Positions 28,378 through 31,092 of a DNA stretch of 36,460 bases are shown in pieces. How positions within the stretch are numbered: the first letter of the stretch is position 1; each line of letters begins with the position of its first letter. The DNA comes from Ignavibacteria bacterium. Its GTDB lineage: Bacteria; Bacteroidota; Ignavibacteria; Ignavibacteriales; SURF-24. Where the stretch lies: positions 1-36,460 of the forward strand of contig JAAXKN010000042.1 of the NCBI GenBank assembly GCA_025612375.1, written 5' to 3'. The translations under genes were made by a program, and so were the position numbers. The notes beneath the pieces were generated by a model. It did not search any database and was not told where the DNA came from. It saw only the letters and a list, made by a program, of their open reading frames with translations.

Positions 28378-29136
28378 TCAGGAGCCGGTTCTGACCAGTT
28401 CCAGTGGCTTTCCCTGGATTTTCCCATTAGGAGTGGGCCCGCTTAGCTTATATAAGAAAATATTTTTGTCATTTTTCTCCCACATGAAATAATCCAGCTT
28501 TATTATCTTTTTACCGCCATTTCCAAAGCTTTTAATTTCTTTCATAACCAATATATTCTGGTCTTTGGGAACAGCATCTTTAGTCAGTGAAATGCTGTAT
28601 TCATTATATTCCCTGAAGCCTTTTATTTTTCCGTCTGACGAAAAAGTAATCCGGCTATTTTCATTTCCCCGCAAAATATAACTGCCTGTAATATAATGGT
28701 CATTGATAAAGTGGAACACTCCTTCAATAGTTTTGTAATTGTCCGGCAGGTGTAAAAAGGCCATTTCCTTCCCCTGGATATTCAGAAGAAGCCTGTCCAT
28801 GCCACTTATTTTCTTTAGTTCTAGTGTGCATTTAGTTCTTCCCTGATTATCCAACACCGCCACCAAATTTCTTTTCAGGAGTTTATATTTGTATCTCAGG
28901 CAGTCATGAAAACTTAACAGATGCAGTTCCCGGCTTTTATTATTGAATCCAACAGCCAGGATCTGATTTTCCTGGGGTTGTAGGCTCATGGGCATTTTCC
29001 CCTGCATTAGTCCGTCATAATAATCATCCAGCATCCACACGGAATTGCTGCTGAATATTTTGTTCTTATTATTCTGGGCCTGGGTTGGAATAATCAGGCA
29101 TAAAAAGAAAAGCAGCAGCTGAAATGTTATTTTCAT
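28378..29136 (-). CDS. Secreted protein of unknown function
   Basis: The protein has about 252 residues. I place the start at the ATG at 29136, which begins a clear signal peptide (MKITFQLLLFFLCLIIPTQAQ); the frame is open upstream to 29247, but those 37 residues are hydrophobic noise before a second signal-like stretch. The mature part is mainly predicted beta-strands with repeated Gly-Asn/Asp turns and phrases such as NKSRELHLLSFHDCLRYKYK, NYKTIEGVFHFINDHYITGS and GKIKGFREYNEYSI. It has two cysteines in the mature chain and no lipobox. I do not recognise the family. It is more AT-rich than its neighbours, which may point to an accessory gene. It is convergent with trxB. Confidence 0.7.
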   Translation of the reverse strand: MKITFQLLLFFLCLIIPTQAQNNKNKIFSSNSVWMLDDYYDGLMQGKMPMSLQPQENQILAVGFNNKSRELHLLSFHDCLRYKYKLLKRNLVAVLDNQGRTKCTLELKKISGMDRLLLNIQGKEMAFLHLPDNYKTIEGVFHFINDHYITGSYILRGNENSRITFSSDGKIKGFREYNEYSISLTKDAVPKDQNILVMKEIKSFGNGGKKIIKLDYFMWEKNDKNIFLYKLSGPTPNGKIQGKPLELVRTGS

Positions 29137-29335
29137 TTTATCCCCTTGCAATCTTTTCACATACCTAAAAGTCAATGAGAAATGAAATGATGTATATAAA
29201 AACAGGTTAATCGACGAAAACTTAAGGAGAAGTTTCGAGATAAGCAATAAGAAGGATTTTTTGAATGCAGGAATATATTTAGAGAAGATAAAAAGAAAAA
29301 TTAAATACTCCGATTCATGATGCAGAGCGGAGTAA

Positions 29336-29405: not shown

Positions 29406-29759
29406 TTAATAACTCTTCTCCAGCTTACGGCCGAGGAGGTTGGCAATTACAAAACCGAGTCCCGATAAGGTGAACAGCAGCAGGGGCATCCAGAATTCCT
29501 GATCGGTAACCTCCTGGAGATACATTCCCACGCCAACACCGATACCAAAGAATATGGCAATTATTCCGATCTTGGTCATGAGAAAAGGATTTGATTTACC
29601 TTTGTTTTCAAAAAACTGCTTGATTTCCTCGGCGGGCAGCCCGCGTTCTATAAGCATCTGGCGCTCCCTGGACTTAAAATAGGCGACTGTCACCCATACA
29701 AGACCAATCACCAGGGTTATAGCTATTGGTATAAATGCTCCGATTACTCCAGGTACCAT
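29406..29759 (-). CDS. Small membrane protein, DUF6249-like
   Basis: This 117-residue protein has three hydrophobic segments, at about 6-27, 59-79 and 90-108. Between the first two is a charged stretch, FKSRERQMLIERGLPAEEIK, which resembles the DUF6249 family found near ECF sigma genes in Bacteroidota. The function is unknown. It is divergent from the sigma factor gene, and one or two ECF-type promoter motifs (TGTAACC, 16-17 bp, GTCwmAA) point at it, so it is probably a target of that sigma factor. A good ribosome-binding site (AAAGGAG) is present, and a terminator follows at 29336-29387. Confidence 0.75.
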   Translation of the reverse strand: MVPGVIGAFIPIAITLVIGLVWVTVAYFKSRERQMLIERGLPAEEIKQFFENKGKSNPFLMTKIGIIAIFFGIGVGVGMYLQEVTDQEFWMPLLLFTLSGLGFVIANLLGRKLEKSY

Positions 29760-29788
29760 GATAGACTCCTTTTATTATCTAATTATTT

Positions 29789-29815
29789 TGACGGGATTTC
29801 CGCCAAAAGGTTACA
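29789..29815 (-). promoter_or_regulatory. ECF-type promoter of the DUF6249-like gene
   Basis: On the minus strand TGTAACC (29815-29809) and GTCAAAA (29792-29786) are separated by 16 bp. The first element continues as CTTTT, as in the sigma gene's own promoter. The predicted transcript would have a leader of about 23 bases with AAAGGAG before the ATG at 29759. Confidence 0.6.
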
Positions 29816-29885
29816 CTTTTATGAATTTATTTTCCTTACAGTTTTTTTTATATCCGGATATAATATTTCTGATCTCTACTATTTG

Positions 29886-29913
29886 AGACTAGGAGGAAGT
29901 GAGAAAGGTTACA
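29886..29913 (-). promoter_or_regulatory. Second upstream ECF-type promoter motif
   Basis: On the minus strand TGTAACC (29913-29907) and GTCTCAA (29889-29883) are separated by 17 bp. It points toward the DUF6249-like gene from about 100 bp farther upstream, so it may be a tandem promoter or give a separate short transcript. Confidence 0.4.
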
Positions 29914-29957
29914 CATTTTGCCCGCGGGAATTATTTTATTAATTTGACGAGGCAGTC

Positions 29958-29988
29958 TGTAACCTTTTCCTTAATTAAATGGTCACAA
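29958..29988 (+). promoter_or_regulatory. ECF-type promoter of the sigma factor gene (autoregulation)
   Basis: TGTAACC (29958-29964), 17 bp and GTCACAA (29982-29988) stand directly before the sigma gene ATG at 29996. The -35 element continues CTTTTCC. With a start site about 5-8 bases after the -10, the mRNA would have almost no leader. Confidence 0.55.
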
Positions 29989-29995
29989 GTATACG

Positions 29996-30562
29996 ATGAG
30001 GAATTTAAGCGACATAGAAATCATAGAATCGGTTAAAAGGGGCAATCAGGCTGACTTTTCGCTCATTGTTGACCGGTACAAGGACAAAGGCTTCTCCCTG
30101 CTTAAGAGGATGCTGAGGAATGACTTTGACGCCGAGGAAGTCCTGCAGGACAGCTTCCTTAAAGCCTACCAGTCACTTTCCTCATTCAGGCAGGATTCCA
30201 AATTTTCGACCTGGTTTTACCGTATCGCTTACAATTCGGCGCTGACATTCCTTTCAAGCAAAAGACGGAGGAATGAAAAAGAGCTCTCATCGCTTGAAGA
30301 CCACCTGGAACTGAAAGACAGCGATAACGAGGTATATGCCGAGAGCGAGAACGTGGCGCAGTTTGTAAATAAAATGATAGACAAGCTGCCCGGGAAATAT
30401 TCGAGCATTATTAATATGTTCTATATAGATGATATGAGTCTTGATGAAATTAGCAAAACTACGGGGTTATCCCTGGTAAATGTTAAAGTTATCCTTCACA
30501 GGTCGCGCAATGCATTAAGGGACCTGGTACTGAAGCATAATTATCATGAGGAGCTGTTATGA
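29996..30562 (+). CDS. ECF sigma factor (RpoE family)
   Basis: This 188-residue sigma factor has only regions 2 and 4. Region 2 includes DFSLIVDRYKDKGFSLLKRM, DAEEVLQDSFLKAYQSLSSF and FSTWFYRIAYNSAL; region 4 includes KLPGKYSSIINMFYIDDMSL and EISKTTGLSLVNVKVILHRS. There is no C-terminal SnoaL or other extension. It is preceded by its own ECF-type promoter and lacks a Shine-Dalgarno, so its mRNA may be leaderless. The anti-sigma gene overlaps its end (ATGA), which is the usual arrangement for sigma/anti-sigma pairs. The likely regulon includes itself and the divergent DUF6249-like membrane protein. The signal is unknown but is probably at the envelope. Confidence 0.94.
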   Translation: MRNLSDIEIIESVKRGNQADFSLIVDRYKDKGFSLLKRMLRNDFDAEEVLQDSFLKAYQSLSSFRQDSKFSTWFYRIAYNSALTFLSSKRRRNEKELSSLEDHLELKDSDNEVYAESENVAQFVNKMIDKLPGKYSSIINMFYIDDMSLDEISKTTGLSLVNVKVILHRSRNALRDLVLKHNYHEELL

Positions 30563-31092
30563 CGCACATTAGCGATGAAGTCTTAAATAAATATATTGAC
30601 AACGAACTTGAAAGCCGTGAGCTTTCGGAATTAAACGAGCACCTGAAGTTCTGCACTTCATGCCTCTCGAGGCTTAAAGCTCTCCGTATGGTTGATCAGC
30701 AGCTAAGGCGGATAGAGACTTTCCATGTTTCAGCCGACTTTACGCAGAATCTGATGAAGAAAATTGAAAAGATATCTTTCCATTACACACCCAGAAAGAG
30801 TTATTTCTTCAGGTTTGTTGTTGCTTTATTCGTAATTCTGACTGCCGCCATGCTGGCTGCAGTTGTAATTACAGTTAAGGCATCCGCTCCTGCCGTGGCC
30901 TCAGAGCCGGCATGGTACAAGGCGATTCTGGATACGTTTTCGGCTAAACTTTCGAGCGTACTTACCGGCTACAACAGCCTTTTTACCAACAGGAGCTTTT
31001 CCATCGTGGGCTCAGGGCTTGCATTTATAATTTTAGTGAGCATTTATATTGTCTATGAATCCTTTAAGGGGGTAAAAGGAAGGATTCATTAA
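30559..31092 (+). CDS. Anti-sigma factor with zinc-finger (zf-HC2/ZAS) domain
   Basis: This 177-residue membrane protein should hold the preceding sigma factor inactive. The N-terminal anti-sigma domain has the ZAS motif HLKFCTSC (His28, Cys32, Cys35) within SDEVLNKYIDNELESRELSE. A membrane helix follows at about 85-107 (FFRFVVALFVILTAAMLAAV), then a short outer part of about 45 residues, and a second hydrophobic segment near the end (GSGLAFIILVSIYIVYESF). A second helix places the C-terminus back inside, which is less common for this class. The start overlaps the sigma gene by four bases. A terminator follows at 31122-31150. Confidence 0.9.
   Translation: MTHISDEVLNKYIDNELESRELSELNEHLKFCTSCLSRLKALRMVDQQLRRIETFHVSADFTQNLMKKIEKISFHYTPRKSYFFRFVVALFVILTAAMLAAVVITVKASAPAVASEPAWYKAILDTFSAKLSSVLTGYNSLFTNRSFSIVGSGLAFIILVSIYIVYESFKGVKGRIH

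Follow-up and report, generated by a model that had tools for sequence, protein, structure and literature searches.

The ECF sigma factors SigX, SigW and SigM of Bacillus subtilis are paired with membrane anti-sigma factors and transcribed from self-activating promoters with an AAC motif in the -35 element and CGTC or CGAC in the -10 element. In Flavobacterium psychrophilum, an ECF-like promoter class termed SM6 has been described (PMC9723704), and a study of Toastrack (DUF4097) and phage-shock/Lia envelope-stress systems notes Toastrack contexts in which a sigma factor gene is part of the operon (PMC11237479). The locus described here, from an Ignavibacteria bacterium (assembly GCA_025612375.1, contig JAAXKN010000042.1), combines an ECF sigma gene, a predicted anti-sigma gene and three AAC/GTC sites with a divergent gene for a small DUF6249 membrane protein. 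It lies in the window, the whole stretch of 36,460 nucleotides that was analyzed. We consider it highly probable that the region between the two divergent genes is a positively autoregulated control region of the sigma/anti-sigma pair, with DUF6249 and a few other genes as further targets.

Gene content and promoter-like sites of the locus

The sigma gene (29996..30562, plus strand) encodes 188 amino acids with matches to Pfam Sigma70_r2 (1.7e-15) and Sigma70_r4_2 (5e-11), and its score against TIGR02937 (sigma70-ECF) is 98.9 bits, above the cut-off of 42.9. With regions 2 and 4 only, in about 190 residues, it has the architecture of an ECF (group 4) sigma factor, and it stays below the equivalog cut-offs of SigW (124.5 vs 209 bits) and RpoE (107.5 vs 236 bits). 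By its named hits, it comes from a member of Ignavibacteria. Directly downstream, overlapping the sigma gene by ATGA, is a 177-residue anti-sigma gene (30559..31092, plus strand) with a Pfam zf-HC2 match above cut-off, an HxxxCxxC motif and two hydrophobic segments; these features and the overlap mark its product as the predicted cognate anti-sigma factor. Of 50 orthologues, 46 show an ATGA-type overlap; 12 carry the HxxxCxxC zinc motif itself and 38 lack it, despite the kept gene order and overlap. The divergent partner and predicted target (29406..29759, minus strand) is a 117-residue small membrane protein matching DUF6249 (PF19762, 43.4 bits, gathering cut-off 33). Beyond it on the same strand, an open reading frame of up to 289 residues (28378-29247) has a signal-peptide-like start and yielded no Pfam or NCBIfam match.

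The 240-bp intergenic region between the sigma and DUF6249 genes contains three copies of TGTAACC followed after 16 or 17 nt by GTC, two further bases and AA, all between 29786 and 29988. A sequence-only reading of this DNA had described this pattern, and direct inspection found it exact. P1, the predicted ECF promoter of the sigma gene (29958..29988, plus strand), has its -35 element TGTAACC at 29958-29964 and, 17 nt later, its -10 element GTC at 29982-29984, followed by ACAA. Two copies face the DUF6249 gene on the minus strand: a predicted distal promoter, P2 (29883..29913; TGTAACC 29913-29907, 17 nt, GTC 29889-29887, then TCAA), and a predicted proximal promoter, P3 (29786..29815; TGTAACC 29815-29809, 16 nt, GTC 29792-29790, then AAAA). 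The assignment of one copy to the sigma gene (ATG at 29996) and two to the DUF6249 gene (ATG at 29759, minus strand) in that reading was likewise correct. The T-rich bases that follow TGTAACC in all three sites are an addition to it. Matches to TGTAAC-N16-19-GTC number three in the whole window, all of them here, within about 200 bp, where dinucleotide shuffles of the window give 0.44 +/- 0.69. No known RNA element or terminator was found in the intergenic region. A perfect 16-bp palindrome, TTATATCCGGATATAA, lies between P2 and P3 at 29848-29863 and is not at the same place in relatives.

Conservation within the order and across the phylum

The sigma factor was sought in 59 genomes, and 50 orthologous loci from three families within the order were read. 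A divergent gene is present at all 50, DUF6249-like by sequence inspection, and in 45 a sigma-facing TGTAAC...GTC precedes the start codon by 35-39 nt. Three more loci (G012, G037, G048 in our genome numbering) have AGTAACC with GTC at the P1 position, which brings the fixed placement to 48 of 50; in the other two (G036, G053) the sigma-facing copy is farther upstream. On the DUF6249 side, 49 of the 50 loci carry at least one minus-strand copy, and 25 carry more than one. Most loci have 17 nt between TGTAACC and GTC, the rest 16 or 18 nt, and across the three families TGTAAC and GTC have stayed fixed while the spacers diverged. Upstream of the sigma gene, an AAC -35 and a GTC -10 element with 16-18 nt between them, the ECF geometry proposed from the sequence alone, are kept across the 50 loci. 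When a motif model was run over the 59 genomes, the sigma/DUF6249 locus ranked at the top almost everywhere. Gene content agrees: DUF6249 occurs in 20/20 sampled same-order genomes with the sigma factor and in 0/5 without it. In some relatives (L021, G047:C28; L059, G016:C1:1892203-1892845) two DUF6249-like genes follow one another downstream of these promoters.

For the phylum, 247 genomes were searched for DUF6249, and 47 loci from outside the order were read. In 45 of these 47 sampled genomes an ECF gene adjoins DUF6249 as its divergent neighbor, usually with the promoter pair seen in the order. By manual count, 28 of the 45 have TGTAAC or TGAAAC followed by GTC 35-42 nt before the ECF start codon; in 8 such a site is present at a greater distance upstream, and 9 are without one. 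The -35 element differs between lineages of the linked sigma factor, mostly being TGTAACC or TGAAACC. Comparison with related genomes, proposed in the earlier reading as a check, therefore finds the arrangement retained both in same-order loci and across the phylum, and the presence of the gene pair with its promoters outside the order argues that the circuit is old.

Predicted start sites and the sigma mRNA

All 75 minus-strand sites carry a purine 10 nt after GTC, usually preceded by T, and this conserved purine suggests a start site about 10-11 nt after GTC, at the edge of the 5-10 bases expected in the sequence-only reading. Transcription from P3 would then begin at about 29780-29779, with a leader of about 20 nt that contains AGGAG, and P2 is predicted to give a leader of about 118 nt on the DUF6249 side. 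From P1, the start would fall at about 29994-29996, with a predicted leader of 0-2 nt. The gap between GTC and the sigma start codon is 9-12 nt in 45 genomes (standard deviation 0.9), as compared to 19-106 nt (median 32) for DUF6249, and a Shine-Dalgarno-like motif precedes 44/49 DUF6249 genes versus 3/49 sigma genes. Given the short gap and the suggested start distance, a sigma mRNA with no leader, or almost none, is expected. Leaderless mRNAs make up 5.5% in F. psychrophilum (PMC9723704), and 5' UTRs under 10 nt about 3.7% in B. thetaiotaomicron (PMC7366714); as such mRNAs are rare in these maps of Bacteroidota, the predicted leaderless sigma mRNA is a testable peculiarity of the locus.

Candidate regulon and a second ECF sigma factor

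In the genome of the window, TGTAACC-N16-18-GTC-NN-AA has seven matches, as compared to none for a reversed-pattern control. Three are at the sigma locus, two fall inside reading frames, one precedes a Toastrack DUF4097 gene (G000:C45:352) by 58 nt and one a DUF5916/CBM9 gene (G000:C23:5449) by 88 nt. The motif had been put forward as usable for finding the rest of the regulon, which held in part. As a genome scan, the exact pattern was ruled out, since matches outside the locus, summed over genomes with the sigma factor, equal those of the reversed-pattern control (66 vs 68) and so show no enrichment; combined with a comparison of orthologues, the motif gave two recurring targets. Upstream regions of orthologues were scored with a weight matrix (score 10 or more) that was trained on the sigma loci of the same clade; the scored orthologues are related rather than independent. 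Sites were found upstream of 30/50 DUF4097 and 17/30 DUF5916/CBM9 orthologues, against about 0.1% in shuffles. DUF4097 occurs in 49/51 genomes that have the sigma factor versus 3/8 that lack it (P = 2e-4), although the sampled genomes without the sigma factor also lack a second ECF sigma factor, such that this co-occurrence alone cannot separate the two. The sequence-only motif model that ranks the locus at the top almost everywhere was rejected as a regulon finder: in the window's own genome it overlooks the DUF4097 and DUF5916 sites, which may reflect its scoring of the AT-rich spacers as well. Serine hydrolases (two genomes), an M61-like peptidase, an L,D-transpeptidase-like protein and a MATE-like transporter, the last three named by sequence reading only, were set aside for too little recurrence.

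The second ECF sigma factor, about 30% identical to that of the window, lies beside further Toastrack DUF4097 copies (G000:C53 around 14497, L271; G055:C3:1504773, L268; G025:C82:116, L269; G007:C24:3391, L275; and others). In most of the 21 genomes read, a conserved motif particular to it, ACAACCTTT-N16/17-GTCTAA (ACAACC...GTCTAA), lies upstream. In their -35 sequence, 26/30 DUF4097 sites are like the motif that belongs to the window's sigma factor, and a DUF4097 site is present in 9/14 genomes that have this sigma factor and lack the second ECF. The DUF5916 sites are mixed between the window-sigma and second-ECF types (11 vs 7), which leaves DUF4097 as the firmer target. Two genomes without either sigma factor (G023, G042) still have the motif upstream of DUF5916; together with the similar motif of the second ECF, this suggests that more than one sigma factor may read such sites. 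We predict a small envelope regulon comprising the Toastrack (DUF4097) protein and the DUF5916/CBM9 protein.

Proposed circuit and alternative explanations

For the circuit proposed here, sequence, motif conservation and gene content were observed, whereas promoter activity, start sites, inducing signal, the sigma factor that reads P1-P3 and the role of DUF6249 are all deduced. Envelope stress would release the sigma factor from the anti-sigma factor in the membrane. Sigma-bound RNA polymerase would start at P1, yielding sigma and anti-sigma factor, and at P3 and P2, yielding the DUF6249 membrane protein, in line with the predicted self-activation and control of the DUF6249 gene. A few other genes would also be switched on, the Toastrack (DUF4097) protein most consistently and the exported DUF5916/CBM9 protein in several genomes. 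Because P1 adjoins the sigma start codon so closely, the sigma mRNA would be leaderless or have a leader of 1-2 nt, and as the anti-sigma gene begins over the sigma stop codon, translation of the two would probably be coupled, limiting the response.

As several copies in both orientations within one intergenic region, the repeats could also be operators of a conventional DNA-binding regulator rather than promoters. Such operators would have to be non-palindromic, consist of two half-elements at a promoter-like spacing of 17 nt (16 or 18 nt in a minority), stand at a constant distance from the start codon of the sigma gene and be followed by a purine preference about 10 nt after GTC, in a locus whose only linked regulator gene is an ECF sigma gene, and we regard this explanation as very improbable. 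It is somewhat less improbable, and still quite unlikely, that the promoters are real and are read mainly by another ECF sigma factor, the local one having a different specificity. The genome has about 14 ECF-like matches, and the ACAACC-N16/17-GTCTAA motif of the second ECF is related. However, the motif is strictly tied to the local sigma gene in 50 genomes, 14 of which have no second ECF at the threshold applied; the promoters of the second ECF differ in the bases before AACC, and the choice between TGTAACC and TGAAACC follows the lineage of the linked sigma factor.

A larger share of doubt attaches to the sigma mRNA, which may have a leader after all, with a true start farther upstream at another promoter or a start codon downstream. 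In 2/50 relatives the gap between GTC of P1 and the start codon is 70-84 nt, and a weak sigma-70-like match lies at 29835-29864 (plus strand), at chance level. Against this, protein conservation begins at the Met of this start codon, the next Met being residue 39, the GTC-ATG gap is uniformly short for the sigma gene as compared to that for DUF6249, and of the two genes only the sigma gene lacks a Shine-Dalgarno motif; a leadered sigma mRNA is thus rather unlikely. Returning to the autoregulated circuit with a near-leaderless sigma mRNA, its extension to the whole phylum is offered tentatively, as a possibility that we would not yet favor: an ECF/anti-sigma/DUF6249 stress circuit in which the sigma mRNA, made from the sigma factor's own promoter, is leaderless, the targets have ordinary leaders and DUF6249 is a conserved feedback or effector membrane protein. 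Were this true, the regulator would be translated by other rules than its targets, for example under a stress that impairs ordinary initiation.

Relation to known systems

Beyond the first reading of the sequence, whose observation and interpretation both hold up, the prediction of a near-leaderless sigma mRNA and that of a small envelope regulon are new. DUF6249, a family of unknown function, becomes the predicted stress-regulated partner of one ECF sigma factor across much of the phylum, and a poorly studied class gains a comparison-supported promoter motif with first targets. The locus also yields the prediction of a leaderless, conserved regulator mRNA, in a group for which such mRNAs are reported to form a small minority (PMC9723704, PMC7366714). 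In the library searched, no functional study of DUF6249 turned up, nor any paper on the TGTAACC...GTC motif in Bacteroidota.

Among described promoters, SM6 of F. psychrophilum (PMC9723704) is comparable in that several same-phylum loci here have TGTAACC...CGTC before the ECF gene, whereas SM6 has type IX secretion genes among its targets. The Toastrack (DUF4097) systems (PMC11237479) share with the locus their Toastrack protein, the most consistent extra target here; unlike in those systems, the Toastrack gene is unlinked and is tied to the sigma factor by the promoter motif, and where an ECF gene does adjoin Toastrack genes, it is that of the second sigma factor, a paralogue. The combination of ECF sigma factor, membrane anti-sigma factor and AAC/GTC promoter, with self-activation predicted here, is that of SigX, SigW and SigM of B. 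subtilis. The SigW model matches the window's sigma factor, albeit far below its equivalog cut-off, and the divergent DUF6249 gene, the predicted leaderless sigma mRNA and the Bacteroidota-group host set the locus apart from the B. subtilis systems. We regard it as a new case, conserved widely, of a familiar arrangement, a putatively self-activating ECF sigma factor with a divergent target, to which a predicted and consistent leaderless feature is added.
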